From contig NZ_QURB01000001.1 in assembly GCF_003402975.1 (NCBI RefSeq), forward strand, positions 434,001-498,000: DNA of 64,000 nt. Direction: 5' to 3'. Position numbers and translations under genes: made by a program. This stretch comes from Brumimicrobium aurantiacum. Lineage in GTDB: Bacteria > Bacteroidota > Bacteroidia > Flavobacteriales_D > Crocinitomicaceae. The notes under the pieces were generated by a model. It saw only the letters and a program-made list of their open reading frames with translations. It searched no databases and was not told where the DNA came from. This document shows positions 33,141 through 63,000 of this stretch, piece by piece (within the stretch, counting starts at the first letter, position 1; each line of letters opens with the position of its first letter).

Positions 33141-33220
33141 TATAGCCTTGTAAAATCAGCTGCGAAAGTAGTAATTTTTTTACTATCTTAATGATAAGAC
33201 AATTAACAATTCTAAATCAA

Positions 33221-33508
33221 ATGCAGTATTACACCTATATCCTTTTATGCAGTGATGACTCTTATTATGTCGGGGTTACCAATAACATTGAGCGTCGTTT
33301 TTCTGAACATACCACCGGAGAAAACTCTACATCATACACCTACTCTCGTCGTCCATTAAAATTAGTTTATTTCGTAAGTTCAGAATATATAATTAACGCC
33401 ATTGCCAGAGAGAAACAACTCAAAGGTTGGACACGAAAGAAGAAGGAAGCTTTGATTAACGGGTGGGAAGGGGAGCTAAAAGATTTAGCGAAGAAGAAGT
33501 TTAAATAA
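33221..33508 (+). CDS. small GIY-YIG nuclease-like protein (copy 1)
   Basis: A 95-residue single-domain GIY-YIG protein (family UPF0213-like). The signature is YTYILLCSDD-SYYVGVTNN, followed by R (ERRFSEH), the E in AREKQLKGW and the basic end TRKKKEALI. The ATG at 33221 places the domain at the N-terminus; the longer frame starts at 33191 but adds only residues without homology. The gene ends 13 bp ahead of a structured palindrome of about 208 bp (33522-33729). Family members cut DNA in repair and mobile elements; this one may be a repeat-associated nuclease (see findings). Confidence 0.85.
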   Translation: MQYYTYILLCSDDSYYVGVTNNIERRFSEHTTGENSTSYTYSRRPLKLVYFVSSEYIINAIAREKQLKGWTRKKKEALINGWEGELKDLAKKKFK

Positions 33509-33521
33509 CACGCTTTTGTCC

Positions 33522-33729
33522 GCCTTCGGTACTATTTCATTCGTTCCTCATGAAATCACTCAGTCTGACAAAAACTATATATTATAGTCAATTACTACCA
33601 AGAGACAATCATCTTCAAACAATGCTTTTCCTTGTCAGACTGAATGATTCGCTACACTAGAGAAAAACTGTATTCTCTGTTTGTCAGACTGAGTGTTTTC
33701 CGACACCAGGAGGAAAATGTACCGAAGGC
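33522..33729. repeat. imperfect long palindrome after GIY-YIG gene 1
   Basis: Outer perfect arms GCCTTCGGTAC (33522-33532) and GTACCGAAGGC (33719-33729). Inner perfect 16-bp arms CACTCAGTCTGACAAA (33557-33572) and TTTGTCAGACTGAGTG (33680-33695). A third partial copy TTGTCAGACTGA lies at 33632-33643. It fills the gap between the GIY-YIG gene and the PKD protein. It is not a simple terminator because the span is over 200 bp. Confidence 0.75.
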
Positions 33730-33785
33730 TGATGTCTTTTTCATCCTTTTTCCCTACTTTTGATTGAAAATTTTTCTACTTGATT

Positions 33786-36700
33786 ATGGTGAATTTAAAA
33801 CCAACTCTTATTTCATTCTTACTTTGCCTTACAAGTATTTTATCCTTCGCTCAAGGATTGCTCGTATATCCAAAAGACAGTGCTGTATTTGATGTTACAG
33901 AAATTCAATTTGAATGGAACAGTAAAAATGGGGCAAACAACTATCACTTACAAATAGCTGACGAACCCACTTTTACAAATCTGATCGTAAACAATAGCAA
34001 CTTAACCTCACTTTCTTATTTAGCTCAAAACCTAACCCCAAATACTGTTTATTATTGGAGGGTAAAACCCAACAACTCCAATTGGTCAAATGCTCATATT
34101 TTCACTTTAGTTGATTTCAGAACTTGGCCAGAATTAGAGTTTATGCTAGATCCTGACAGCGTCATACTAGATGTGAATGGAAAAGTTGAGCAATGGACTG
34201 ATTTATCTGGAAATGGTTTAAATTTCAACCAATCTAACTTGAGTTCAAGACCGTCTAAATCAATTGACCAACAAATAAATAACAAAAACACCATTCAATT
34301 CAATCCTAATTCTAATGAATATTTAATTGGTCCAGATTTATCTCATTTACTAGAAGGAGAGATAATCTCTTTAGTTAAAAAGTTTAATTTTCCTATCACA
34401 AATCAATTTCATAGTGCAATATGGAGGTTTAATACAAGTTTAGATATTGGTGTATATCCCTACACTAACAACTATGTTTACTCGGGATTTGGTCGATCAA
34501 TACGTTTTACTAATTTGTTTTTAACTGATTCATTAGAAATGTGTACTTCTCATATTTTAAACATTTCAAGTGGAATTAACTTTAATTTTAACATCAATAA
34601 TTCTACAAAGTTTTCTTCTTCAAATGGCAGCGTAATCTTCACAAATGAAGCTTTGCTAGGCCGAGGGAGAAATGGTGCGAACTACTACTTCGACGGCTCA
34701 TTCGGTCAAATCCTATTCTTCAATACCGTACTTACTGATTCTTTAAGAAATCTTGTCCACGCACAAATGCAACACAAATACGCTCCCCCAGTTAATTTAG
34801 GAAGAAACATCTCTCAATACGGATTTTGTGATACCACCCTATACGCAGGAGAAAGATTCACCTCCTACCTCTGGTCAGATGGATCTACCGCAGATAGTTT
34901 AATTGCTAATGGGCCTGGTACCTACTGGGTGGAAGTGGAAGATATCTTTGGTTTTGTTTCTCGAGATACTATTGAAGTACTCCCAGAACTCAACTACCCT
35001 ACCACTCAACTCTACTGTCCCAACGATTCAATAATTTGGGACACAGGTCTCGGTCAGCACTACTCCTACCTATGGTCGGATGGTTCAACGGGGGATACAC
35101 TTGAGATAGAAACTCCGGGTGATTATCATGTTGTGGTGACGGACACGAATGGTTGTATTTTCAAATCGGATACCTTAACATTTGCAGAAGATCCATATCC
35201 AGCTTCGGTGAGTTTGGGCCCTGACACCAATCTCTGTTCCGGAAACACAATTGAACTCCTCAATGGCGCGAATGGAGCGGTAAGTTATTTATGGAATACA
35301 AATGATGTTACGCCGTCAATTGCAATCAACACTACTGGAACATACAGTGTGATTGTAGAAAATAGTAATGGCTGTATAGCAAAGGACACCATTGATGTGA
35401 CCATTTTGGGAGACGCACCCATTGTACAGATGCAAATTCCAGCTGAAGTTTGTTTGGGGGATACATTTAACTTTCAAGATCAATCGACAACAACAGATGG
35501 TTCTACAATAATAGACTGGGAATGGGCTTTTGCCAATAACGACACTTTAACAATAGCAACTGGAACACAAGTGTATGACACAAGCGGATTTTTCCCTGTT
35601 CACCTTACGATTGAAACTTCGGCAGGTTGTTTTAACAATATAACAGACACCATTGAGGTACGTAGCTTACCGATTTTGACATTTGCTACTTCCAATCAAT
35701 GTGAAGACGAAAGTATACTTTTCAATGGCGGTCAAATGACTCCATCGTTAATTAATACATGGGAATGGAACTTTGATGACCCTTCAAGTGGCAGCAATAA
35801 TATGGCTTCAGGTCAAAACACTGATCATATTTTTAACGCACCTGGAGATTATGATGTGATGCTTGTAGGAACAGATGTTTTCGGATGTATTGACACCCTT
35901 ACACAAACTAAAACGATTGCTCCTAAACCTGTGGCTGATTTCACTTTCACTGAAGTTTGTGAAGGTAGTGTAGTTGATTTTCAGAATACTTCTACTGTAG
36001 CAGCACCCGCGAGTTTAAATAGTCAGTTTTGGAGTTTTGGAGATGGAACCAATGCCACGCAAACGGACCCTCAAAAACCATATAGTACGCATGGAAGTTA
36101 TACCGTAACTTTAAGTTCAACAGCAGACAATGGCTGTAGTCATAGTGTTTCAAAAGACATTAAAATTCATGCAATACCTCAAGTGGCAAACACGATTTCA
36201 CAAAATTGTGCAGGCTTAGCAACTGAGTTTTCAGATGCATCATTCGTACCTGACGGAAGTGTGGCTATTGTCGATTGGGATTTCAACAATCAAAATGCAC
36301 AATCAGGATTTTCAATAACACAAAGTTTTCCAACAGATGGAACATACACATTGGAACAAACTGTGACTTCTGGATTCGGCTGTCTAAACACTGAAGTTTC
36401 AACAATTACCATCAATCCATTTTTAGCCGCAGATTTCACATTTACACCTAATGCATTTATCGCTGATTATCCAATTTTATTTGAAAATACAAGTACAGGA
36501 GAAAACACTTTGATTTGGGACTTTGGAAACGGAATTTACTCGACTCAAAATGATACAAGTATTGTTTTCGACAACACTCAAATAGGAACAACACAATCGG
36601 TAAAACTAAAGGTGGAAAATCAATGGAACTGTACAGACAGTATGATTATCCAACTCCCTGTGCTAAAACAAAGAACAGATCTTGAATTGGGTCAACTTTT

Positions 36701-37280
36701 TGTACAAGAGACAAATGGATTCTTAACAATTGGCGTTCAATTAAAGAACTCAGGAAGCACTCCTATTTCAGAGGTAGATTTAATTTTGAGTAGTCCAAAC
36801 GAAGGATTAATCAAAGAAACATGGACTGGAATGTTACTGGCTGAAGAAGAAGAGATCTTTGTATTTAACGCTTCGCCGAGTGCTGTTATTTCTAAAAACG
36901 ATAGTTTACAAAACTATATTTGCATCAAAGGAGAAATCATAAATCCGTCTCAATTTACAGAACAAGAAACTGCAAACAATGAAGTTTGTAAATCCTTAAC
37001 TGAAGACAATGCTGTTGTAGTTCAACCTTATCCAAACCCAGTGCACGACTTGCTGACCATCAAGATTGTGATGCCAAAAGAAGGAAATGCTTCGATTCGT
37101 ATTTTGGATAATTTGGGAAGAATTATTCAAGAAGTAAGCAAAGAAGAGGCAATGGAGAAAGGACTGAACACCACTACAGTTAACACTGACAATTTCAGTA
37201 ATGGAAACTATAAAATTTATGTTTCAACGGATATTGAAGGCAAAGAAACCGTGGTGATTAGGGAGTTTGTTAAGATGTAG
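33786..37280 (+). CDS. large secreted PKD-domain protein with T9SS sorting signal
   Basis: A 1164-residue extracellular protein: signal peptide (to about residue 22), fibronectin-III-like domain (about 30-105), a concanavalin/LamG-like domain (about 115-330), three short SYLWSDGST-type repeats ending in NGC (about 370-540), three or four PKD domains (about 555-890; FSFGDG-like WSFGDGTNAT is visible) and a type A T9SS domain (PYPNPVHDLLTIKI ... VREFVKM). Such proteins often act in adhesion or cell-surface structure. The first codon listed by some callers is TTG at 33780; ATG at 33786 is chosen. No catalytic motif is seen. Confidence 0.9.
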   Translation: MVNLKPTLISFLLCLTSILSFAQGLLVYPKDSAVFDVTEIQFEWNSKNGANNYHLQIADEPTFTNLIVNNSNLTSLSYLAQNLTPNTVYYWRVKPNNSNWSNAHIFTLVDFRTWPELEFMLDPDSVILDVNGKVEQWTDLSGNGLNFNQSNLSSRPSKSIDQQINNKNTIQFNPNSNEYLIGPDLSHLLEGEIISLVKKFNFPITNQFHSAIWRFNTSLDIGVYPYTNNYVYSGFGRSIRFTNLFLTDSLEMCTSHILNISSGINFNFNINNSTKFSSSNGSVIFTNEALLGRGRNGANYYFDGSFGQILFFNTVLTDSLRNLVHAQMQHKYAPPVNLGRNISQYGFCDTTLYAGERFTSYLWSDGSTADSLIANGPGTYWVEVEDIFGFVSRDTIEVLPELNYPTTQLYCPNDSIIWDTGLGQHYSYLWSDGSTGDTLEIETPGDYHVVVTDTNGCIFKSDTLTFAEDPYPASVSLGPDTNLCSGNTIELLNGANGAVSYLWNTNDVTPSIAINTTGTYSVIVENSNGCIAKDTIDVTILGDAPIVQMQIPAEVCLGDTFNFQDQSTTTDGSTIIDWEWAFANNDTLTIATGTQVYDTSGFFPVHLTIETSAGCFNNITDTIEVRSLPILTFATSNQCEDESILFNGGQMTPSLINTWEWNFDDPSSGSNNMASGQNTDHIFNAPGDYDVMLVGTDVFGCIDTLTQTKTIAPKPVADFTFTEVCEGSVVDFQNTSTVAAPASLNSQFWSFGDGTNATQTDPQKPYSTHGSYTVTLSSTADNGCSHSVSKDIKIHAIPQVANTISQNCAGLATEFSDASFVPDGSVAIVDWDFNNQNAQSGFSITQSFPTDGTYTLEQTVTSGFGCLNTEVSTITINPFLAADFTFTPNAFIADYPILFENTSTGENTLIWDFGNGIYSTQNDTSIVFDNTQIGTTQSVKLKVENQWNCTDSMIIQLPVLKQRTDLELGQLFVQETNGFLTIGVQLKNSGSTPISEVDLILSSPNEGLIKETWTGMLLAEEEEIFVFNASPSAVISKNDSLQNYICIKGEIINPSQFTEQETANNEVCKSLTEDNAVVVQPYPNPVHDLLTIKIVMPKEGNASIRILDNLGRIIQEVSKEEAMEKGLNTTTVNTDNFSNGNYKIYVSTDIEGKETVVIREFVKM

Positions 37281-37385
37281 TAGAAGATTATATTTTTCAA
37301 ACACTAAAAACAACAGGGTAGAGTTTAAGAATGAAGACTCCTCGTCGTTTCACATCATTGGAATGACGTGGCATTAAGTGAAACT

Positions 37386-37455
37386 TCGTCGCGCTGCGCG
37401 CGACGAAATTAATCCAATAATCCTGTCATTTCGATGGAACACAGTGACTGAGAAA
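37386..37455. repeat. partial copy of the long dispersed repeat (right half)
   Basis: Starts with the GC-rich hairpin TCGTCGCGC-TGC-GCGCGACGA (37386-37406; arm shown in parts) and ends with the arm CATTTCGATGGAACACAGTG...GAGAAATCTG. It lacks the left half found in the two complete copies downstream. Confidence 0.75.
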
Positions 37456-37528
37456 TCTGTTTTCAATTAGTTATTTACTTTTTCCCATTATTCATTCTTG
37501 CCTGTTATAATTTATAAACTCAAACTCC

Positions 37529-37823
37529 CTTCGTCGTTCTCAAACACTATAAATTTTTCAGAAAGACTGAAGTAATGTGGGGCCCAAACGTGGTTTTCTT
37601 AGGCGCATCCGAGAAGAGTAAGGTTTGGATTCTTTTTTAAATATTCCATAGATAAACTGTCTGTTTACTCAGATTTCTCCAGCATTACATGCTGTTCGAA
37701 ATGGCCTCGCTTTGGGGTGAAACTTCGTCGCGCTGCGCGCGACGATTCAAACCAATTAAATTCGTCATTTCGATGGATCGCAGTGACTGAGAAATCTGTT
37801 TTCAATTAGTTATTTACTTTTTC
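37529..37823. repeat. complete dispersed repeat, copy 2
   Basis: About 295 bp. Order: leader CTTCGTCGTTCTCAAACACT, GTGGGGCCCAAAC, arm AGATTTCTC (37671-37679), CGAAATGGCCTCGC, a GC hairpin (arms 37725-37733 and 37737-37745, 9-bp stem, loop TGC), TTCGTCATTTCGATGG and the inverse arm GAGAAATCT (37789-37797). It has no ORF and shares outer arms with the GIY-YIG modules at 43-45 kb. Confidence 0.85.
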
Positions 37824-37903
37824 AAAGTTGAAATCAGTAGAAAGTTGAATTTTCAAGACTCCAAACTCTTGTACACTACTGTATTTCCGCCCTGAAGGGG
37901 CAA

Positions 37904-37940
37904 CTCTTGCTAACTGAGGTATCGCCTCAGTTAGCAAGAG
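37904..37940. repeat. perfect 16-bp hairpin in gene-free DNA
   Basis: CTCTTGCTAACTGAGG (37904-37919) pairs with CCTCAGTTAGCAAGAG (37925-37940) with a 5-nt loop. It is flanked by small GC hairpins with GCCCT...AGGGC arms. It lies between two dispersed repeats. It could be a terminator or a REP-like unit; no gene precedes it closely. Confidence 0.65.
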
Positions 37941-38109
37941 GAATAAGTGCAACTTCGCCCTAACAGGGCAGCTTAATAACAACTGACCGAGAAGTCTTTA
38001 TTTACTTTTTCCCATCACCGCAAAAAGTAAAGCCAAAAAGGCTAGCGCTTAGAAAACCTTTTACCCACTTCTGCCTTCACTTTCTAAAATTTATAAACTC
38101 AAACTTCCT

Positions 38110-38402
38110 TCGTCGTTTTCAAACACTATAAATTTTCCAGAAAGGATGAAGCCAAGTGGGGCCCAAACATGGTTTTCTCATGCGCATCCGAAAAGATCAA
38201 CGTTTGGATTCTTTTTTTAAGTACTCCATAGATAAACTGTCTATTTACTCAGATTTCTCCAGCAGTACATGCTGTTCGAAATGGCCTCGCTTTGGGGTGG
38301 ATCTTCGTCGCGCACAGCGCGACGACTCAAACCAATTAAATTCGTCATTTCGATGGAACGCAGTGACTGAGAAATCTGTTTTCAATTAGTCATTTACTTT
38401 TT
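38110..38402. repeat. complete dispersed repeat, copy 3
   Basis: The same order as copy 2 with scattered substitutions. The GC hairpin at 38305-38325 keeps the 9-bp stem while the 3-nt loop changes from TGC to ACA, as expected if the stem matters. The next partial copy begins at about 38446. Confidence 0.85.
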
Positions 38403-38445
38403 GCCATTATTCATTCTTGCCTGTTTTAATTTGTATTCTTGAGCT

Positions 38446-38535
38446 TCCTTCGTCGTTCTCAAACACTATAATTTTTTCAAAAAGACTGAAGTCAGGTGGG
38501 GCCCAAACGCGGTTTTCTTAGGCGCGTACGAGAAG
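38446..38535. repeat. partial copy of the long dispersed repeat (left half)
   Basis: Contains the leader and GTGGGGCCCAAACGCGG only, then loses similarity. Together with the half copy at 37.4 kb it shows that copies break near the middle. Confidence 0.7.
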
Positions 38536-38749
38536 CAAATGATTTGCATTCCTTTTAAAAACAGAGATTAGTAAACAGTTCCCTAAATTCAGATACGATT
38601 ATGGTGTCTTTCTTCATTCTCCTACTGCTTTTCTTTCACGTACTATAGTTAAAAAGCATGGTGATTGGAATTTTACCCTAAACATGGTACAGTAATTCCT
38701 TTAAAAGATTTGTATTTTTGCCATTATTTAGAACAATTCTAAGTTAGTT

Positions 38750-40207
38750 ATGAGAGCAATATTAAGTATCATTTTATTTTCTTGCGTTTTTACATTAAAC
38801 GCTCAAAAAAACGTATTCCTAGATCGTACATTTTGGAATGAAAAGACATCAATTAATGATGTTAAAGAAGCAGTAAAGGAAGGCAATAGTCCAACGGAGT
38901 TTAACAAATATAACTTTGACGCAACAGTTTATGCTATTTTACAAAATGCTCCAACAAAAACAATCGCTTACCTACTTTCACTCGAAGGAAATGAAGTGAG
39001 TAAAATTACACACGACGGAAGAAATTACTTAATGTGGGCTGCATACAAACACAACTATCCAGTGGTTAAATTACTCCTTGAAAAAGGATCGGACATTAAC
39101 ATCTACGACGATAAAGGTCAAAACACACAGACTTTTGCCGCAATGGGTGGAAACTTAAACATTGACATCTATACTCTTCTTGAAGAAAATGGTTTGCCTA
39201 TAAAAACACCAAGTAGAAAAGGAGAAACTGCAATGCATTTATTGAGTCAACATATTGAAGATATTGAACAATTAAATTTCTTCCTTGAACATGGGTTAAG
39301 TTTAAAACAAACTGATAAAGCCGGTAACAATCTATTCCACTTTGCTTCAGCACAAGGAAATATAAAAGTATTAAATCAACTGATAGAAAAGGACTTTGAT
39401 CCTAAGGCAAAAAATAAAAATGGAGAAAATGCACTCTTCTTTGCGGCGAGAGGAAAACGTAGTCATGTAAACGAGTTTCAATTGTTCAGGTTTTTACATA
39501 CACAAGGACTTAAATTGGATTTGATCAACAATAGTGGAAGTACAGTTTTGCATTATCTTGCAAGAAGTCAGAAAGATGAAACGGTTTTTAAATATTTCAT
39601 GGAATTTGGTGCTGATGTAAACAAGGTTAATGTCGAAGGAAATACAGCCTTGATGATTGCAATGGCTAGAAATAACACTCCTGCGATTGAAATCTTGTTT
39701 GAAGTCACTGAGAAGAAAAACATCATTAATAAAGATGGATATTCTATCCTTACTTATGCATTGCGTACGAAAAATGAAAAGATCATCTCTAAATTAATGG
39801 AACAGAACGTTAATTATCATTTAGAAGATAAAAAAGGAAACAACTTCATCACTCATCTGGTAGATACTTATAAAAAGGAAGACAAGGTGTTTTTTGAAAA
39901 ATACATGAAATTATTTATCTCAAAAGATGTCGAAATTCAAGCTCAAACTTTGCAAATTGCTACTTCAAAAGAAAATGAATATTTAATCAATTTTTTAACT
40001 GAAAAAGGCGCTGACATTAACGCCAAAAACAAAGAAGGTTTAACTGCATTACAGCTGGCTGCTATGAAAGGTGAAAACACTGAATTTATTAAGTTTTTAA
40101 TTGCAAAAGGAGCTGACAAGGATGTCCAAACAGAATTTGGAGAAACAGTTTACGAACTGGCAAAAAACAATGAATTATTAGAAGGAAGATTAAAGTTTTT
40201 GAAATAA
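38750..40207 (+). CDS. exported ankyrin-repeat protein
   Basis: A 485-residue protein with a signal peptide (MRAILSIILFSCVFTLNAQ) and about ten ankyrin repeats (e.g. HDGRNYLMWAAYKHNYPVVK, GNTALMIAMARNNTPAIEIL, EGLTALQLAAMKG). Ankyrin arrays bind proteins; in the periplasm they may protect enzymes or act in stress defence. It is followed 15 bp later by the DUF2271 gene on the same strand, so the two and the next gene may be an operon. No enzyme domain is seen. Confidence 0.88.
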   Translation: MRAILSIILFSCVFTLNAQKNVFLDRTFWNEKTSINDVKEAVKEGNSPTEFNKYNFDATVYAILQNAPTKTIAYLLSLEGNEVSKITHDGRNYLMWAAYKHNYPVVKLLLEKGSDINIYDDKGQNTQTFAAMGGNLNIDIYTLLEENGLPIKTPSRKGETAMHLLSQHIEDIEQLNFFLEHGLSLKQTDKAGNNLFHFASAQGNIKVLNQLIEKDFDPKAKNKNGENALFFAARGKRSHVNEFQLFRFLHTQGLKLDLINNSGSTVLHYLARSQKDETVFKYFMEFGADVNKVNVEGNTALMIAMARNNTPAIEILFEVTEKKNIINKDGYSILTYALRTKNEKIISKLMEQNVNYHLEDKKGNNFITHLVDTYKKEDKVFFEKYMKLFISKDVEIQAQTLQIATSKENEYLINFLTEKGADINAKNKEGLTALQLAAMKGENTEFIKFLIAKGADKDVQTEFGETVYELAKNNELLEGRLKFLK

Positions 40208-40222
40208 AGTAAAAGTAAAGAA

Positions 40223-40726
40223 ATGAAAAGGTTATCGATATTAGGTTTGTTTGTTGTTTTAACAATCTCTTTGACTTCATTTGTGAACAAAGTTAACAGT
40301 GGTGGAGGTGATTACAAATGTTTAATTCAACTAAAAAACTATCAAGGAGAAGGTGCGTATGTTGTCATTTCTCTAATTGATAATGAAGGAGAATATGTTA
40401 AAACCTTGCGTGTTTTAGGTGATGATCGTGAATGGTACCCAGATTTGCCTGCTTGGAATACGTTTAGGGAGAAAAACCGTTTTCAACCCCGATTAGACGG
40501 AATTACAGGTGCTTCAATTGGTAGTGGTGAACGCTCGGTTGTTTCATTCACTTTAGAAGAACAATACATCGATAAAGGATATACTTTACGATTTGAAACA
40601 TCAGTTGAAGACAAAAAATATCACAAAGAAGATGTTGTCATCGACTTAAGCAAAGACAATTTAAGTAAAGGGAAATACGAAGGAGAAAAAGGTTATATCA
40701 GAATGATAAGATTGATTCCTGTTTAA
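40223..40726 (+). CDS. DUF2271 domain protein (periplasmic)
   Basis: A 167-residue exported protein (signal peptide about 1-22) whose body fits DUF2271: YVKTLRVLGDDREWYPDLPAW, then DGITGASIGSGERSVVSF and a C-terminal beta strand pair. DUF2271 proteins are usually found next to PepSY-type membrane reductases and ApbE flavin transferases, implying a periplasmic redox or flavin role. Here a PepSY reductase gene follows by 42 bp, which supports the call. No ApbE gene is in the window. Confidence 0.85.
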   Translation: MKRLSILGLFVVLTISLTSFVNKVNSGGGDYKCLIQLKNYQGEGAYVVISLIDNEGEYVKTLRVLGDDREWYPDLPAWNTFREKNRFQPRLDGITGASIGSGERSVVSFTLEEQYIDKGYTLRFETSVEDKKYHKEDVVIDLSKDNLSKGKYEGEKGYIRMIRLIPV

Positions 40727-40768
40727 TTTCTAACAGGAAGAATTTAACCTTATTAAAATCAGTATTGA

Positions 40769-42937
40769 ATGGCGTCTAGTTTTTGGAGGTATAGTCACTT
40801 AATTTTAGCTTTACTTTCGAGTGTTTTCTTATTTATTGCAGCAGCCACGGGAATTATTCTTTCCGCTGAGCCTGTAATTCAGCAAGCACAATCTCCGGCA
40901 GAAAAAGCGGCATTAGACACCCTTACGCTTTCTGATTTGATTCCAAAACTAAAAAACGAATACATCGAAGTATTTTCCGTTGAGGTTGAAAAAGAAGGCG
41001 CTGTTAAGGTAGATGTTATTGGATTTGATGAGGAAACGGATGGTGCATTTTATATTCATCCCGCTACGGCCAAAAAAAGTGCTGAAATAGAACCAAAAAG
41101 TGACTTTTTTGAATGGGTAACTGCCCTTCACCGTTCATTATTTATGCATAATAGCGGTCGAATTATTATGGGAATAACGGTATTCCTTTTACTATTGATG
41201 GCGACTTCTGGAATTGCCTTAGTCATCAAAAGCACGAATGGATTAAAACACATTTTCACGCGTCTCAAAAAACATAATGAAGCACAATACTTCCATACCG
41301 TTTTAGGACGTTGGTCTTTTATTCCCATCATGGTAATGGCATTCGGAGGAACGATCATGTTTCTAGACACCCAAGGATTATTGGAAAAAGAAGTTCCATC
41401 CAGCTCAGTAAAGGAATCTAACAATAAAAACATTTTTGAGGACATACTGCTTTCTGAGGTAGTTACCCTAAACTTCCCATTTTCATCCGACGAAACTGAC
41501 TTTTTTGAACTGGAATTGCATGATAAAAATTTAAAAATCCATCAATACACTAACTCTGTAGTTTCGGATACTCCAAAATCGAATACAGAACAATTAGTTA
41601 ATCTATCCGAAACTTTACACACAGGAAGAGGGCAATTTATTTGGGCAATTATTTTAGGTTTGATCTCTATCAACCTCATCTACTTTATGTATTCAGGTAC
41701 TAAAATTGCTTGGAACAGAATATCTTCAAAAACCCGCAATAAATTTGGTGCAGAAGATGCTGAAATCATCATCTTAGTCGGCTCAGAAAATGGTTCAACG
41801 AAGAAATTCGCACTACAATTATTCAAAGCATTAATCTCCAAAGGAAATACTGTCTTTGTAGATGAAATGAATGCCTACCAAGCCTACCCTAAAGCAAAAC
41901 ACTTACTTGTTTTAACTTCAACCTATGGAGATGGTGAAGCACCTTTTAAAGCCCGAAAATTTCTTGACAAAGTAAATGAAATTAGTCAACCCAACACCTT
42001 ATCAACCTATGTCATTGGCTTTGGCTCGATGAGTTATCCTCAATTTTGTCAGTACGCCATTGATGTTCATGAAGCATTAGCAAACAACCGACAATTTGAT
42101 CTTTTCGCTCCTCCATTTTTAATCGACAAGCAGTCATTCACAAGCTTCAAACTAGCCATTGATGAATGGGCCAAACAGCATAAAATTTCAATCGATTTAC
42201 CCAACGAAGAAGACCATCCTTCACAAGAAAAATCTAACTTTGAGATCGTCAGGAAGGAAATCGTTGATGATGGCTACTCTACAACATTCACCCTCTCATT
42301 AAAACCTTTAAATCATAATAAGTTTCAAGCGGGAGATTTATTGGCCATTGCTCCTCCAGAAGAAGAACATGTTCGTTATTATTCGATGGGTAAAACCCAC
42401 GATGGAAATATCCTTTTGAGCATCAAAAAACATGACTTAGGAAAATGCTCAACGTATTTATTTAAGCAAGAATTGGGTGATAAAATTCGAGGAATCATCA
42501 AGATTAACAAGTCCTTCCATTTACCTAAAAACAATGACGTTATATTGATTGCCAACGGTACGGGTATAGCACCATTTTTGGGCATGAATTCTATGTACAC
42601 CAACCAGAAAAAGACCTTTTATTTAGGGGGAAGAACTAAGGACGGATTCAAATTATACCATCATTTAATCCAAGAAAACTCTTCAAAGGAGCAGTTCAAC
42701 ACCTTACATTTTGCCATATCGAAGGAAGAAAGTGAATGTAAATATGTTCAAGATTTAATTCGTAAGCATAAACACGAAGTACTAGAGCACCTGAAAAACA
42801 AAGGAAGCATAATGATTTGTGGTTCACTAAAAATGCGTGATGGCGTTTTAGAAGAATTAAAACAATGTGTATCCAACAGTAACCTCAAGATAGAAAACCT
42901 AATCGAGAAAGGTAAAATTAAAATGGACTGCTATTAG
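40769..42937 (+). CDS. PepSY membrane domain fused to flavodoxin and NADPH reductase domains
   Basis: A 722-residue three-part protein. Residues about 1-320: PepSY-type membrane part with four helices and histidines in ALHRSLFMHN and AQYFHTVLGRW. Residues about 335-475: flavodoxin with IILVGSENGSTKKFA and LTSTYGDGEAPFKA for FMN binding. Residues about 490-722: ferredoxin-NADP-reductase-like FAD/NADPH domain, with RYYSMGKT, ANGTGIAPFLGM and a final KMDCY. It resembles sulfite reductase flavoprotein and should move electrons from NADPH through flavins to the membrane or periplasm, possibly for iron or flavin reduction. It is the last gene of a three-gene run. Confidence 0.88.
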   Translation: MASSFWRYSHLILALLSSVFLFIAAATGIILSAEPVIQQAQSPAEKAALDTLTLSDLIPKLKNEYIEVFSVEVEKEGAVKVDVIGFDEETDGAFYIHPATAKKSAEIEPKSDFFEWVTALHRSLFMHNSGRIIMGITVFLLLLMATSGIALVIKSTNGLKHIFTRLKKHNEAQYFHTVLGRWSFIPIMVMAFGGTIMFLDTQGLLEKEVPSSSVKESNNKNIFEDILLSEVVTLNFPFSSDETDFFELELHDKNLKIHQYTNSVVSDTPKSNTEQLVNLSETLHTGRGQFIWAIILGLISINLIYFMYSGTKIAWNRISSKTRNKFGAEDAEIIILVGSENGSTKKFALQLFKALISKGNTVFVDEMNAYQAYPKAKHLLVLTSTYGDGEAPFKARKFLDKVNEISQPNTLSTYVIGFGSMSYPQFCQYAIDVHEALANNRQFDLFAPPFLIDKQSFTSFKLAIDEWAKQHKISIDLPNEEDHPSQEKSNFEIVRKEIVDDGYSTTFTLSLKPLNHNKFQAGDLLAIAPPEEEHVRYYSMGKTHDGNILLSIKKHDLGKCSTYLFKQELGDKIRGIIKINKSFHLPKNNDVILIANGTGIAPFLGMNSMYTNQKKTFYLGGRTKDGFKLYHHLIQENSSKEQFNTLHFAISKEESECKYVQDLIRKHKHEVLEHLKNKGSIMICGSLKMRDGVLEELKQCVSNSNLKIENLIEKGKIKMDCY

Positions 42938-43050
42938 AAAATCATGCTCAAATTCACTGATAAACATAAGCTTTAATGTTGAGGATTGGAAATTAGATTT
43001 CTCGTCGAATGACTTCAAAAAATAAACTCCAATATTATTGTTTGTAATAA

Positions 43051-43182
43051 TAGATTTCTCGTCGAACACAACATGACCAAGTATCAATGCTAATTAGATT
43101 TCTCTCCGAATACCACACAAACAAAAATCAATGTTAGATAGATTTCTCTCCGAACAATGCATAAACAAGCATCAATGCTAAA
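43051..43182. repeat. 44-bp tandem repeat array A (three units)
   Basis: Units begin at 43051, 43095 and 43139, each opening with TAGATTTCTC then GTCGAA or TCCGAA and closing with ATCAATGC or ATCAATGTTAGA. They lead directly into palindromic module 1 at 43184, whose first bases match the unit start. Confidence 0.8.
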
Positions 43183-43183
43183 T

Positions 43184-43341
43184 AGATTTCTCGTCGCTTC
43201 GCTCTGTCGAAATGAACGTAAACGCAGGCGTAGGGGAAAAAAGAAACGAAAGCTGCGCTTTCGTTTCTTTTTTCATTCCCTCCCTCCGAAAGGGATCATT
43301 TCGAACAGCTCAAAATCTTCGATTTTGGGATGGAGAAATCT
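43184..43341. repeat. palindromic module 1 (next to GIY-YIG copy 2)
   Basis: 158 bp: outer arms AGATTTCTC (43184-43192) and GAGAAATCT (43333-43341); next pair GTCGAAATGA and TCATTTCGAAC; a central perfect 16-bp hairpin AAAAAAGAAACGAAAG-CTGCG-CTTTCGTTTCTTTTTT written in parts (43237-43252, 43258-43273), and a small CAAAATC-TTC-GATTTTG hairpin. It ends 31 bp before the GIY-YIG stop codon. Confidence 0.88.
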
Positions 43342-43372
43342 CAATGTGGTTTGATAGAGCTTTGTTTATGAA

Positions 43373-43672
43373 TTAATTACTGATAGGTGCAATGATTTCT
43401 TCCCATTTAGGATTATCTATTTCAATTAGCGCTTCTTTTTTAGATCTTCTATATTTCTTTATTTGTCGCTCTCTTGAGAAAGCTAATTTTGCATCGTTGA
43501 AGGTTTCATAATACACTAATTTTGTAATGTTATATCTTTTTGCAAAACTTTCATAATATCCAGTTTTATGCTGATGAACTCGTTTTAACAAATCACTTGT
43601 ATAGCCGACATACAAAGTTGTTTTTGAAGGGTTTGTTAAAATATACACAAAGTAAACTCTATTAATTCTCAT
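43373..43672 (-). CDS. small GIY-YIG nuclease-like protein (copy 2)
   Basis: A 99-residue GIY-YIG domain: VYFVYILTNPSKTTLYVGYT, R31 region LLKRVHQH, and RERQIKKYRRSKKEALIE with the catalytic Glu. The whole gene plus flanks is duplicated at 44064-44363. The two genes differ at four bases: three silent and one changing A44 to S44, suggesting selection for function. The 3' end abuts palindromic module 1. The protein is of a different subfamily from copy 1 at 33.2 kb but shares the REKQLKG/RERQIKK helix and KKEALI end. Confidence 0.88.
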   Translation of the reverse strand: MRINRVYFVYILTNPSKTTLYVGYTSDLLKRVHQHKTGYYESFAKRYNITKLVYYETFNDAKLAFSRERQIKKYRRSKKEALIEIDNPKWEEIIAPISN

Positions 43673-43783
43673 TTGATTTAGATGATTTAGTTTTATTTAA
43701 GTTAAGCCTATTCATTAATAATAACAAGAACTATCGAAAAAATCAAAAGTCTTCAAATTTCCAACAAATGAAAAATCAATAAA

Positions 43784-43872
43784 TAAACTTCTCTCCGAAC
43801 AATGCATAAACAAGAATCAATGTTAGATAGATTTCTCGTCGAACAATGCATAAACAAAAATCAATGTTAGAT
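43784..43872. repeat. 44-bp tandem repeat array B (two units)
   Basis: Units at about 43784 (opening with ACTTCTCTCCGAAC) and 43828 (TAGATTTCTCGTCGAAC), the second one base longer. The array joins module 2. Confidence 0.75.
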
Positions 43873-43873
43873 T

Positions 43874-44032
43874 AGATTTCTCGTCGCTTCGCTCTGTCGA
43901 AATGAACGTAAACGCAGGCGTAGGGAAAAAAAAGAAACGAAAGCTGCGCTTTCGTTTCTTTTTTCATTCCCTCCCTCCGAACGGTATCATTTCGAACAGC
44001 TCAAAATCTTCGATTTTGGGATGGAGAAATCT
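43874..44032. repeat. palindromic module 2 (next to GIY-YIG copy 3)
   Basis: 159 bp with the same arms and central hairpin as module 1, one A longer in the poly-A before the hairpin. Outer arms 43874-43882 and 44024-44032. It ends 31 bp before the stop codon of the third GIY-YIG gene. Confidence 0.88.
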
Positions 44033-44063
44033 GAATGTGGTTTGAAGGAGCTTTGTTTATGAA

Positions 44064-44363
44064 TTAATTACTGATAGGTGCAATGATTTCTTCCCATTTA
44101 GGATTATCTATTTCAATTAGAGCTTCTTTTTTAGATCTTCTATATTTCTTTATTTGTCGCTCTCTTGAGAAAGCTAATTTTGCATCGTTGAAGGTTTCAT
44201 AATACACTAATTTTGTAATGTTATATCTTTTTGAAAAACTTTCATAATATCCAGTTTTATGCTGATGAACTCGTTTTAACAAATCACTTGTATAGCCGAC
44301 ATACAAAGTTGTTTTTGAAGGATTTGTTAAAATATAAACAAAGTAAACTCTATTAATTCTCAT
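44064..44363 (-). CDS. small GIY-YIG nuclease-like protein (copy 3, duplicate of copy 2)
   Basis: A 99-residue protein identical to copy 2 except for S44. It is part of a direct duplication of about 690 bp including module, gene and 125 bp of upstream DNA. All GIY-YIG catalytic positions are retained. Whether both are expressed is unknown; the common upstream sequence would give both the same promoter. Confidence 0.88.
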   Translation of the reverse strand: MRINRVYFVYILTNPSKTTLYVGYTSDLLKRVHQHKTGYYESFSKRYNITKLVYYETFNDAKLAFSRERQIKKYRRSKKEALIEIDNPKWEEIIAPISN

Positions 44364-44530
44364 TTGATTTAGATGATTTAGTTTTATTTAAGTTAAGCCT
44401 ATTCATTAATAATAACAAGAACTATCGAAAAAATCAAAAGTCTTCAAATTTCCAACAAATGAAAAATCAATAAATAAACTTCTCTCCGCTACAATTTTAG
44501 AATTAATCATCAAAATAGGAAGTTGAAAAA

Positions 44531-44706
44531 CAGATTTCTCGTTGAACAATGCATAAACAAAAATCAATGTTAGATAGATTTCTCTCCGAACAATGCATAA
44601 ACAAGAATCAATGTTAGATAGATTTCTCGTCGAACAATGCACAAACAAAAATCAATGTTAGATAGATTTCTCTCCGAACAATGCATAAACAAGAATCAAT
44701 GTTAGA
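44531..44706. repeat. 44-bp tandem repeat array C (four units)
   Basis: Units at 44531, 44575, 44619 and 44663 alternate between a GTCGAA/GTTGAA type and a TCCGAA type, so an 88-bp higher-order period is visible. The next TAGATTTCTC at 44707 opens module 3. Confidence 0.82.
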
Positions 44707-44707
44707 T

Positions 44708-44864
44708 AGATTTCTCGTCGCTTCGCTCTGTCGAAATGAACGTAAACGCAGGCGTAGGGAAAAAAGAAACGAAAGCTGCGCTTTCGTTTCTTTTTTCATT
44801 TCCACCCTCCGAACGGTATCATTTCGAACAGCTCAAAATCTTCGATTTTGGGATGGAGAAATCT
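44708..44864. repeat. palindromic module 3, without a nuclease gene
   Basis: 157 bp, same arms (44708-44716, 44856-44864) and central hairpin. Similarity to modules 1-2 continues for about 30 bp to GAGCTTTGTTTATGA and then stops exactly where the GIY-YIG gene ends in the other copies. It looks like a non-autonomous copy. Confidence 0.85.
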
Positions 44865-44979
44865 GAATGTGGTTTGAAGGAGCTTTGTTTATGATACGAC
44901 CATTAATTGGTACAGTATATAAACTAAACCACTTTCCTTGTATGAAGCGTAACTGATGATTTTGGAATGGAGAAATAAT

Positions 44980-60080: not shown

Positions 60081-63000
60081 ATGAAAAAGATTTTACTCAC
60101 CTCAGTACTTTTGCTCCTTATCGTTTTCCAAGGAAAAACACAACGTTTCGATTATGAAAACACTTCAAAAATGTTTTTGGGGTTAAATATTGGAAGCGTT
60201 TGGCACACTTCTGACGTTCAGAACGTAAAAAACCGTTTTCCACTTGGAGCTGGTTTTGTGATCGGAGGTTCTATCAATCAAAACTATGGAAACGCTGTTT
60301 CTTTCGACCTTCGTTTTAGGTATTTAGGTGGTGTTTGGTATGGACAAGATACCGATACTACTGGAGCTATTTCCAACAACTATGCGGTTAACCAATATTA
60401 TGACACTTTGGGTTATACCGTTCAAAATTTCAGAAACGCGCAACACCGATTTGCATTAGAACTTTCAATGCACGCCAATCGATTCAAAGAAAGAACAGGA
60501 ATTGATCCTTATATTTTTGGTGGAATTGGTTTTACTGCGTCTTCTCTTCGAGGTGATTTATTGGACGATGTGCCAGGAACAAGTCAAGGCGATATTTATG
60601 CCTATGATCAAACGCCAAATGGGAGTTTAATTGAAAAAGAATATGAAACCCCACTAGACCTTAATCAGAATGGAGATCCGTATCCAAGTAATGAGTTTGA
60701 TGTAAAAGTTCTCCCTAGCTTGGGTGTCGGTTTAGGATATTATTTCAATAGCCGATTCTCAATGGGAATTGAACACAAAACTACATTTTTTATGGATGAC
60801 TATTTTGATGGTACAACCTTCGATCAAGATGGTGCAACAAGTAGTTTTCTTGACAATGACATGTATCATTACACTAGTATTTACTTCAAATGGTATTTAA
60901 AAGGGAAATCAAGTAATGACAAATGGGAAGAACCAGTTGAAGATGATCCATATACTCCAGCGCCTGTAAACAAAGATCAACCAATCGTTGATTTTACAAA
61001 TCCTTCTAATTCTCCACATAGAACAAATTCTAGACTTTTTAACTTAAGAGCAAATGTTTACAATGTTGCAAGTGCTAGTGACATTACTTTCACAAACAAT
61101 CAGCAAACAAACACAAACTTTGTATTCAATCCATCAACGAATCAATTTGAAGCAACCGTTCAATTGGTTCCCGGAACGAACACATTCTTCCTTAAGGGAA
61201 CAAATCAGTTTGGAAAAGATAGAGATGTTGTGGAAATCTATTACGTTGAAGAAATTGAACGTGGAAATCCGCCAATCGTGAACATCACAAACCCAACAGC
61301 ATTGCCCTACAGAACTAGTTCATCAACACACACTGTTGTTGCAACAATTCAAAATGTTCAATCAAGTGGCTGGTTAGAAGTTTGGTTTAATGACATGGTT
61401 GTAAGCAATTATAATTTCTCTAGCTATGGAACAAACAATTTTTCAATTCCATTAAACCTTATTGAAGGAACCAACAAATTAAAAATAGAAGGAAGAAATG
61501 AATTTGGTCAAGATATGGATGAAGCCATCATCATCTACAAGCCAATTGTAAATACAGATGACAGAGAGCCACCTGTTGTAAATATTTTAACACCAAGTTC
61601 AAATCCTCATATAACAGCGCAGTTAAATGAGAATATTGTTGCAAAGGTTGAAAATGTTGACTTAAAACAGAACATCGAGGTTCGCGTAAATGGTAATATT
61701 TATTCAAATTTCACTTTCAATGCCGCGACAGGAAGAGTACAATTCTCTACTGGAATTAATGCAGGAACAAACACGGTAAAAATTAGTGCGACAAATGCTG
61801 TCGGAAGTGATTTCGATGAAACACAAATCATTTATCGTCGTCCTACGCCTGTTACGCCTCCAAATGTAAATATTCTTACTCCAAATGTGAGTCCTTACAC
61901 GGTAACTCAGCAAACGCAAGGAGTTATTGCTGAAGTTGAAAACATTACTTCTACTTCTCAAATTGAAGTACGCATCAATGGCGTACAAACAAGTAACTAC
62001 TCGTTTAACAACACTACAAAGCGAATTCAGTTTACTGCACCTTTAAATGCTGGAGTAAACACGGTGAATATAACAGTAATCAACAATGACGGAAGTGACT
62101 TTGATGAAACACAAATCATCTACAGAGAACCTATTCCTGTTACGCCTCCAACTGTAAATATTCTTACTCCAAACGTGAGTCCTTACACGGTAACTCAACA
62201 AACGCAAGGAGTTATTGCTGAAGTTGAAAACATTACTTCTACTTCTCAAATTGAAGTACGCATCAATGGCGTACAAACAAGTAACTACTCGTTTAACAAC
62301 ACTACAAAGCGAATTCAATTTACTGCACCTTTAAATACTGGTGTAAACACGGTGAATATAACAGTAACCAACAATGACGGAAGTGACTTTGATGAAACGC
62401 AAATCATCTACAAAGAGCCTGTTCCTGTTACGCCTCCAACTGTAAATATTCTTACTCCAAACGTGAGTCCTTACACGGTAACTCAGCAAACGCAAGGAGT
62501 TATTGCTGAAGTTGAAAACATTACTTCTACTTCTCAAATTGAAGTACGTATCAATGGTGCACAAACAAGTAACTACTCGTTTAACAACACTACGAAGCGT
62601 ATTCAATTTACTGCACCTTTAAATGCTGGAGTAAACACGGTGAATATAACGGTAACCAACAATGACGGAAGCGATTTTGATGAAACGCAAATCATCTACA
62701 AAGAGCCTGTCCCTGTTACGCCACCAACTGTAAACATTATCTCACCTAACGTGAGTCCGTATACAGCTACGCAACAAACACAAACAATAATCGCTGAAGT
62801 AGAGCACATTTCTTCTTCAACGCAAATTGAAGTACTTTTTAATGGGGTACAAACAAACAACTTTACATTTAATAGTAGTACACAACAAGTACAATTAGTT
62901 GCATCATTGAATTTGGGATCAAACACTGTAAAAATCACCGCTACAAACAACGATGGAAGTGATTTTGATGAAGCACAATTAATTTTGAATACAAATCCAG

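Follow-up and report, generated by a model that had tools for sequence, protein, structure and literature searches.

Short genes for GIY-YIG nucleases are paired with palindromic REP repeats in Brumimicrobium aurantiacum and across bacterial phyla. Because of this pairing, and because the CGTC class of REPs is apparently without a dedicated transposase (Di Nocera et al. 2013, PMC3733652), we propose the short GIY-YIG family as the enzyme of these repeats; the data suggest that it is the long-missing agent of their spread, with binding, cutting and movement inferred in the absence of any assay. What we observe is the pairing itself, bracketing of genes by repeats, co-variation of repeat class with protein clade, copy number biased by class, REP footprints, and sites at which the gene is present in some genomes and absent from others. 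CGTC REPs, which include Neisseria dRS3 and Rickettsia RPE-4/6, carry a CGTC, TGTC or CCTC tag, a stem of 8-9 bp that starts with AT and a loop of 4-5 nt, and occur mostly as head-to-head dimers with a structured spacer; their mode of spread was left open (PMC3733652).

Short GIY-YIG genes and palindromes in the window

The window is the whole stretch of B. aurantiacum DNA analysed, 64,000 nt in length (Table 1). The initial annotation placed a structured palindrome directly 3' of the stop codon of each of its three short GIY-YIG genes; open reading frames and Pfam matches confirm the three genes, each has a strong palindrome at that place, and fold shuffles bear this out for palindrome A and palindrome B copy 2. 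None of 200 shuffles folded as well as palindrome A, and likewise none as well as palindrome B copy 2, whilst for the three gene-less dimers, in the order of Table 1, 5, 0 and 1 of 200 did so. The right units at 37764 and 38344 show a tag of the CGTC-REP type followed by an AT-starting stem; the tags of palindrome B are decayed (GTTC/TATC), and stems are imperfect in the window units as in the class II units described below. Outside the window the genome has a fourth short GIY-YIG gene (L006), with a palindromic repeat 3' of its stop, another copy upstream and a 250-nt fold z of merely -3.4. The window gave no Rfam match at gathering score.

Table 1. Short GIY-YIG genes, palindromes and repeat arrays, in window coordinates.
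Feature	Position	Strand	Basis
A-type short GIY-YIG gene, 105 aa	33191..33508	+	ORF; PF01541 E 9.9e-18
Palindrome A, 3' of A-type gene; holds three TGTCAGACTGA-type units	33522..33730		fold z -6.5; one genome copy
Head-to-head REP dimer without gene; CGTCGCGC hairpin at centre, arms akin to palindrome B	37335..37458		fold z -2.6
Head-to-head REP dimer without gene; outer arms those of palindrome B (AGATTTCTC...CGTCATTTCGA...GAGAAATCT)	37671..37797		fold z -5.5
Head-to-head REP dimer without gene; outer arms those of palindrome B	38251..38377		fold z -3.8
Array, ~44-bp repeats of palindrome-B left arm	42986..43183		repeat search; TRF 43049-43192
Palindrome B copy 1, directly 3' of gene B1 stop	43184..43342
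B-type short GIY-YIG gene B1, 99 aa	43373..43672	-	ORF; Pfam GIY-YIG
Array, 44-bp repeats of palindrome-B left arm	43789..43873		TRF 43789-43886
Palindrome B copy 2, directly 3' of gene B2 stop	43874..44033		fold z -7.3
B-type short GIY-YIG gene B2, 99 aa; 1 residue differs from B1	44064..44363	-	ORF; Pfam GIY-YIG
Array, 44-bp repeats of palindrome-B left arm	44532..44707		TRF 44532-44720
Palindrome B copy 3, no gene	44708..44876

The search of the host genome that had been proposed for these palindromes found no dispersed exact copies, palindrome B being present three times, always within the window, and palindrome A once. These copies are too few for the host genome alone to decide the earlier claim of one palindrome family per GIY-YIG subfamily. 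The gene-less copy at 44.7 kb, previously read as a non-autonomous element, does exist and may be a local duplication.

All three window proteins match the Pfam GIY-YIG family above its cut-off, and the two B-type proteins also match T5orf172; against NCBIfam, none of the three had a match up to E 0.001. The closest solved structures by sequence include UPF0213 proteins (PDB 1zg2, 1ywl), UvrC and, weakly, SLX1. All 78 of 78 proteins keep the Tyr, Tyr, Arg, His and Glu that we take to form the GIY-YIG catalytic site, an observation that does not establish activity. Class I proteins have Trp in 'KNWHREW' (31/31) where class II proteins have Gly in 'KGGSR' (14/14).

Within the genus, 58 palindromes of the form CGGAATGAC-(70-100)-GTCATTCCG were located in 7 of 10 genomes, compared with 0 for the reversed control. 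Of the 37 short GIY-YIG genes, five have a CGGAATGAC-type palindrome no more than 1 kb away, where 0.09 would be expected by chance, so that the predicted enrichment holds, and a lack of it, which would have refuted the association, is not found; among long GIY-YIG genes the corresponding count is 0/19. Y1/RAYT-type genes fall within 1 kb of these palindromes in 0/39 cases and within 5 kb in 1/39, and on the absence of Y1_Tnp genes within 1 kb we rejected a RAYT as mover of the genus palindromes.

REPs often bracket short GIY-YIG genes in many bacterial groups

Wide loci were taken from the best 80 of 563 relatives, picked by protein similarity alone; they are hence the best-scoring relatives and not a random sample. 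The density of CGTC units in these 80 loci is 4.86 per kb within 300 bp of the gene and 0.31-0.49 beyond 600 bp, four scrambled-tag controls giving at most 0.99 per kb; the tags of the units counted are CGTC, TGTC or AGTC, the search not having been aimed at GTAG. Of the 72 GIY-YIG genes that could be tested, 47 have CGTC-type units on both sides, compared with 5 of 362 other genes (taken by us to be ordinary genes of the cell or an ORF called spuriously within a REP array), and a REP pair with tags outward flanks 33/72 and 4/362, respectively. The most frequent layout is a gene between REPs with tags facing outward, and the canonical element, as found outside the window, is of ~400-500 bp and consists of a single or paired CGTC/TGTC-tagged REP hairpin, the GIY-YIG gene and a single or paired inverted REP hairpin, with tags outermost. 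Motif-free alignment gave an inverted flank match of at least 34 for 36/72 GIY-YIG genes and 8/362 others, and for the window's own family an inverted match in 18/60 against 4/221. No unit was detected near 5 of 78 wide-locus GIY-YIG genes.

Amongst Alphaproteobacteria, REPs were found on both sides of 21/65 GIY-YIG genes against 0/88, and inverted flank matches of at least 40 in 30/65 against 0/88; a further count is that 21/65 genes had no detected unit nearby, and one alphaproteobacterium yielded 11 GIY-YIG matches. REP-bracketed genes were present in 4/5 hand-picked named records, four of the five having been chosen from taxa already known to host CGTC REPs; no unit was detected near the GIY-YIG gene of Rhizobium tumorigenes. 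A tag with an AT-starting stem is present in most wide and alphaproteobacterial loci (in a Novosphingobium unit GCCCC follows CGTC), and a stem of ~8-9 bp with a 4-5 nt loop appears, by inspection and without a count, in many alphaproteobacterial and class I units, e.g. CGTCATGCCCGGGCTTGACCCGGGCAT.

The CGTC-unit test was not significant in the window's own family (16/60 vs 40/221, P=0.1), because that family consists mostly of A-type genes with other repeats, e.g. CTTCG(A/G)CT.CGCTCAG. Two tests of folding were weak: the 250 nt downstream had fold z<-4 for 18/66 GIY-YIG genes and 57/437 controls, and local folds with E<=-32 across 78 wide loci numbered 0.79 per intergenic kb vs 0.42 at 3-6 kb. 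The downstream fold-energy test was replaced by the position-resolved and motif-free tests. Some members of the GIY-YIG family are without REPs, and repeats of this kind are missing beside some of the short GIY-YIG genes.

Repeat class follows protein clade

The type of REP follows the GIY-YIG clade even between phyla (Spearman 0.30 over cross-phylum pairs, a value reached by 0/1000 within-phylum permutations), and the part of the earlier claim that subfamily tracks palindrome family therefore stands among relatives. Copies of each REP class are concentrated in genomes that hold the matching GIY-YIG class: the class I pattern is found in 12/14 class-I genomes vs 3/25 others, and the class II pattern in 13/13 class-II genomes vs 11/26 others. 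These 11 genomes have class II REPs but a sampled gene of another class, and five of them (G187, G152, G181, G180, G185) yielded a class II-type gene, the typing resting on the GGS/GGN stretch, on flanking units and on a poorly resolved tree. The G187 protein has no flanking REPs, the G180 gene contains an internal stop, and the G185 frame is split and was typed by 55% identity and by the class II unit on either side of it. For the other six, where only the best match was considered, no class II gene was identified; class II REP copies number 1-7 in G150, G151, G156, G157 and G162, and 191 in G184.

Sites with and without the gene

The proposed check for empty sites succeeded in Azospirillum, Sinorhizobium and Chryseobacterium, the direction of gain or loss not being polarised in any of them. 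Gene-free sites in the first two have flank identity of ~95%. Occupied and empty states with element-bounded junctions are seen at the Azospirillum sufB-sufC site, in Sinorhizobium and at a Chryseobacterium barnase/barstar site, the empty sufB-sufC site of Azospirillum oryzae and A. ramasamyi being without a REP. Some gene-free sites (L277, L264, L271 and Sinorhizobium K101) keep a REP where relatives have the gene.

Near-identical dispersed copies in one genome (G056) were considered as proof of spread driven by GIY-YIG and dropped, since they have their own terminal inverted repeats (TIRs) and 8-bp target duplications, the latter read by eye (L281, L282, L284). They represent a classical TIR element, with seven dispersed copies there and relatives in G094 and G006, in which the REP dimer is a passenger.

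Discussion

The window probably contains two REPtron-like loci in which a GIY-YIG endonuclease replaces the RAYT (HUH) transposase, operating by a proposed mechanism of REP cutting whose recognition, cutting and movement steps are inferences. The nuclease would recognise the REP hairpin of its own class, either single-stranded or extruded as a cruciform, and would cut at or near the CGTC tag; host repair might then copy, insert or remove the REP-bounded segment, and activity in trans could spread gene-less REPs and head-to-head REP dimers. Hydrolytic cutting by itself joins no DNA, and we know of no GIY-YIG enzyme that acts as a transposase. A further reading, put forward tentatively since the case for it falls just short of even, is that the CGTC REP superfamily has its transposases in the short GIY-YIG proteins, with which it would form a pan-bacterial class of minimal mobile elements built on a nuclease fold not known to transpose, and that a short specificity stretch (KNWHREW Trp vs KGGSR Gly) reads the REP hairpin.

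GIY-YIG domains are established homing nucleases, and the REPs could instead pre-exist as targets that the nuclease cuts, the gene being copied in by double-strand-break repair without the REPs themselves moving. Gene-less REPs alongside gene-bearing relatives do resemble unfilled and filled targets; however, the gene is flanked by two whole REPs rather than two half-REPs, copies of a REP class are concentrated where the matching gene is present, and the two Azospirillum species above have an empty site with no REP, leaving homing possible but unlikely. The catalytic fold is shared with I-TevI and I-BmoI, as may be spread through cutting, but unlike those homing endonucleases the window proteins, of ~100 aa, have no separate DNA-binding domain that we found, the window has no Rfam intron match (inteins were outside the search) and palindromic repeats bracket the genes. 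Penelope-like elements differ in that the window proteins are single-domain, of 99-105 aa, with no reverse transcriptase fusion.

A structure-specific nuclease akin to Slx1/YhbQ might alternatively clear REP hairpins or cruciforms for the host, with selection keeping its gene adjacent. This would suit the nearest structures and the assignment of YhbQ and YazA to the Slx1 family (PMC7017083). UPF0213/COG2827 proteins resemble the window proteins in having a single GIY-YIG domain of ~100 residues; these relatives are known as repair-type or uncharacterised proteins (PMC7017083) and are not known as parts of repeat elements. A general hairpin cleaner needs no place between inverted REP pairs and need not vary in class with REP sequence across phyla, and neither multiple copies, such as the 11 matches in one alphaproteobacterium, nor presence and absence at sites would be expected of it, so that we consider a host function very unlikely. 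We would give still less credence to something else moving the REPs, with GIY-YIG genes riding between them: the TIR element does carry a REP dimer as passenger, and six of the 11 genomes with class II REPs yielded no class II gene, but REPs on both sides are rare for other genes, the genus palindromes have no Y1/RAYT-type gene within 1 kb and co-variation with REP class is not required of a passenger.

The preferred reading, a REP-cutting GIY-YIG enzyme, retains the REP/RAYT-like interpretation of the initial annotation, which is supported by gene-palindrome enrichment, class tracking across phyla and gene-free sites. As in REPtrons and REPINs (GTAG REPs, TnpA_REP), a small dedicated enzyme gene lies between REPs, enzyme subfamily matches REP family and gene-less REP dimers occur elsewhere; here, unlike there, the enzyme is a GIY-YIG endonuclease with a CGTC/TGTC tag rather than a Y1 HUH transposase with GTAG, and Y1_Tnp genes are absent within 1 kb of the genus palindromes. 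With the published CGTC REPs our repeats share the tag, the stem that starts with AT, the head-to-head arrangement of dimers, structured spacers and several of the same species, as well as, by inspection of many units, a short loop; the difference is that PMC3733652 reports no transposase gene whereas here the repeats accompany a GIY-YIG gene.

CGTC REPs, the neisserial and rickettsial repeats among them, are widespread small bacterial repeats, and a matched GIY-YIG gene brings the question of their spread within direct experimental reach, by means of small proteins and short hairpins. If correct, the proposal would account for the multiple copies and patchy occurrence of GIY-YIG genes, and would mean that the REP/RAYT way of life has been reached a second time with an unrelated enzyme.

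Results

Palindromes of the window and its genus

A strong palindrome lies directly 3' of the stop codon of all three short GIY-YIG genes in the window, as the initial annotation had described. The products of the two B-type genes are identical except for one residue; both genes lie inside a duplicated block, and the blocks are separated by arrays of a 44-bp repeat whose start resembles the left arm of palindrome B, the palindrome that follows these genes. Three more gene-less palindromes, absent from the initial annotation, lie at 37.3-38.4 kb, with arms the same as or related to those of B. Searches of the host genome placed palindrome B at 43-45 kb only, and palindrome A, which follows the A-type gene, at a single position; one further short GIY-YIG gene, outside the window, has repeats on both sides. 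The flanks of this fourth gene (L006, G000:C4:47671-49732) are two tRNA-end-like copies containing palindrome GTGCCGATAGCTATCGGCAT. Tandem arrays of one palindrome end, with a period of ~44-57 bp, adjoin palindromes both where a GIY-YIG gene is present and where it is not (window 42986-44720; loci L104, L015 and L052). Elsewhere in the window, at 61802-62856, lie 3.7 copies of a 288-bp tandem repeat with 91% matches.

Short GIY-YIG genes and the gene-less palindrome copy at 43-45 kb
Feature	Position	Strand	Basis or remark
Short GIY-YIG gene, A-type	33191-33508	+	ORF, Pfam GIY-YIG match
Short GIY-YIG gene, B-type	43373-43672	-	ORF, Pfam GIY-YIG match
Short GIY-YIG gene, B-type	44064-44363	-	ORF, Pfam GIY-YIG match
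Gene-less third copy of palindrome B	44708-44876		Part of duplicated block with B-type genes

Each palindrome half is a hairpin unit whose intact form has a TGTC or CGTC tag followed by AT, which is how CGTC REPs are defined in Di Nocera et al. 2013 (PMC3733652); the same paper reports no tyrosine transposase gene flanked by CGTC units in the named CGTC hosts. In the window, the palindromes are CGTC REP-type dimers arranged head to head, with the CGTC tag retained on the right unit of those at 37.7 and 38.3 kb and decayed tags in palindromes B.

Across the genus, the pattern CGGAATGAC-(70-100)-GTCATTCCG occurs 58 times in 7/10 genomes (reversed control, 0). A palindrome of this form lies no more than 1 kb from 5 of the 37 short GIY-YIG genes, against 0.09 expected (P = 4e-8), so the enrichment that the initial annotation proposed to test is present at genus level; no long GIY-YIG gene (0/19) and no Y1_Tnp (RAYT-type) gene (0/39) of the genus lies within that distance. 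In genome G056 a GIY-YIG gene adjoins a head-to-tail run of palindromes, about ten by visual count. Seven near-identical dispersed palindrome copies in G056, with relatives in G094 and G006, were rejected as evidence of GIY-YIG-driven spread, since their ~22-bp terminal inverted repeats (TIRs), together with target duplications of 8 bp seen by eye in L281, L282 and L284, identify a classical transposon carrying a REP dimer inside. This MITE (L281-L287, L292-L295) has TIRs of the form TTGGG.TACCAA and a CGTC head-to-head dimer mid-element. The central hairpin loop occurs in both orientations, TTCG and CGAA, in otherwise near-identical copies (genus pattern listing; L281-L287); opening and refilling of the hairpin would produce both, as would recombination between arms.

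In the window's own family the CGTC unit is not enriched (16/60 GIY-YIG versus 40/221 other genes, P = 0.1), because most genes there are A-type and carry another repeat. In the 60 family loci a local fold scan gave a strong-palindrome density of 1.07 per intergenic kb up to 500 bp from the gene, compared with 0.17 at 2-5 kb. The repeats that flank A-type genes (among L057-L103) include CTTCGACTCCGCTCAG and GGCTTCGAGAGCCTCAGCCACC, and some A-type protein ends (LRQAQPPI) are apparently read from such a repeat.

Generality across bacteria

A wide set came from an alignment of seven GIY-YIG proteins (A2), used to scan named genomes without regard to flanking sequence; the best 80 of 563 relatives were taken, 78 of which had a short ORF. 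CGTC unit density was 4.86/kb within 300 bp of the gene and 0.31-0.49 beyond 600 bp, three of four control tags near the gene reaching 0.24-0.35 per kb and one 0.99. A unit lay within 400 bp in 73/78 loci, and on both sides in 54/78. Where 300 bp was available on each side (72 GIY-YIG, 362 other genes), units occurred on any side of 65 GIY-YIG versus 70 other genes, on both sides of 47 versus 5 (P = 1e-38), and with tags outward at 33 versus 4; of three scrambled tags, one showed a slight both-sided excess (4/72 versus 2/362, P = 0.008) and the other two showed none. On our reading, the five non-GIY-YIG genes bracketed by units are normal cellular genes, except for one spurious ORF inside a REP array. 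For 19 of 20 phylum labels (one being 'None') at least one locus had a unit no more than 300 bp away, and 12 had a both-sided locus, Bacteroidota contributing 47 of the 78 loci and most other labels one. A motif-free comparison of upstream with downstream flanks agrees with these counts: inverted matches of at least 34 were found for 36/72 GIY-YIG versus 8/362 other genes (18/60 versus 4/221 in the window's family), and direct matches for 35/72 versus 15/362 (26/60 versus 4/221).

Alphaproteobacteria are the main home of CGTC REPs, and 108/289 of their genomes matched one alphaproteobacterial GIY-YIG protein. One locus was taken from each of 70 better-scoring genomes (ORF in 68, sufficient flank in 65). 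Units lay on any side of 44/65 GIY-YIG versus 9/88 other genes, on both sides of 21/65 versus 0/88 and with tags outward at 19/65 versus 0/88; inverted flank matches of at least 40 occurred in 30/65 versus 0/88, and two scrambled tags gave 4/65 and 2/65 on any side. A plasmid collection yielded 34 matching records; of the five regions examined, four were chosen as belonging to a known CGTC-host species or genus and the fifth came from among eight related Rhizobium plasmids. REP-bracketed GIY-YIG genes were found in Azospirillum lipoferum 4B, Sinorhizobium meliloti Ak57, Novosphingobium aromaticivorans (whose unit has CGTC then GCCCC, not AT) and a Neisseria gonorrhoeae record, and no bracket was found in the Rhizobium tumorigenes region examined. 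PMC3733652 lists the first three species as CGTC hosts, and likewise the Neisseriae as a group.

Pairing of REP class with protein clade

In a tree of the 78 proteins, REP type follows protein clade more than organism. A 13-protein clade (support 88) spanning Bacteroidota, Chloroflexota, Thermodesulfobacteriota and Melainabacteria has ATTGC-type units in 12/12 labelled rows, with three more such rows outside it; many forks are unresolved owing to the few alignment columns. Protein and unit similarity correlate (Spearman 0.35, and 0.30 on cross-phylum pairs; 0/1000 permutations, free or within phylum, reached this), and in 45/73 loci the unit of the nearest cross-phylum protein was more similar than the average, a modest effect. 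The clade and the cross-phylum correlation uphold the earlier suggestion that GIY-YIG subfamilies track palindrome families.

For two REP types, class I and class II, sampled genes were assigned by us from tree and units. Class I pattern copies occur in 12/14 genomes with a class I sampled gene versus 3/25 others, and class II copies in 13/13 versus 11/26. Five of these last 11 genomes also hold a class II-type gene; judged by the best hit only, none was found in the other six, including G184 with 191 copies. With classes set by unit pattern (27/78 unclassified and left out), position 73 in the numbering of the L131 protein is Trp in 31/31 class I and Gly in 14/14 class II proteins; this split is confounded with clade and is therefore a prediction of specificity, not proof.

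Occupied and empty sites

Sites without the gene, whose absence would have told against the initial annotation, are present in Chryseobacterium, Azospirillum and Sinorhizobium. In Chryseobacterium the GIY-YIG gene lies between barnase-like and barstar-like genes (neighbour names are our reading of the sequence). The sample comprised 50 loci from 49 of 118 genomes searched, 30 by BLAST rank and 20 picked as apparently gene-less, so occupied/empty proportions are meaningless. A gene or remnant was present at 26/50 loci, 22 of these 26 being bounded exactly by GTCATTG on the left and CAATGAC on the right, ~370-405 bp apart. The 24 gene-less loci (23 genomes) kept the exact tag motif in 8 cases and a tags-outward pair in 3, e.g. 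the solo REP of L277. A gene that we read as archaemetzincin-like is, like the GIY-YIG element, present in this interval at some loci and absent at others (L188-L195, L231-L280).

In A. lipoferum the interval from sufB to sufC contains a ~0.5-kb block bracketed by REP pairs; in A. oryzae and A. ramasamyi, whose flanks are ~95% identical, it is an intergenic region of 87-91 bp that has neither REP nor gene. The same interval holds an annotated DUF559 gene in Sphingomonas parapaucimobilis (L382). Sinorhizobium Ak57 carries one truncated and one intact GIY-YIG gene in REP brackets, and K101 (~95% identical flanks) has REP-like hairpins at the Ak57 gene site and no gene. At these sites a REP-edged segment has been either gained or lost, the direction not being polarised on a tree.

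Discussion

Our data document that gene and repeat are paired, that REPs bracket the gene, that their classes match, that copy number is biased by class, and that the gene is present or absent with REPs at the edges. A mechanism inferred from these would have the GIY-YIG protein read the hairpin of its own REP class and cut near the tag, after which repair would copy or join the segment; gene-less units may be moved in trans. Among the matches listed (titles and abstract starts, subscription papers and preprints not covered), none linked GIY-YIG or COG2827/UPF0213/YhbQ to REP-type repeats, and the main text of a 2024 review of prokaryotic MITEs contains neither 'GIY' nor 'CGTC'.

There is strong evidence for a widespread association of short GIY-YIG genes with repeats of the CGTC REP type and their relatives; movement of these repeats by the nuclease is likely but untested. 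The REP/RAYT-like system proposed in the initial annotation is borne out and proves wider than supposed, the window being one instance of a widespread GIY-YIG/REP pairing.
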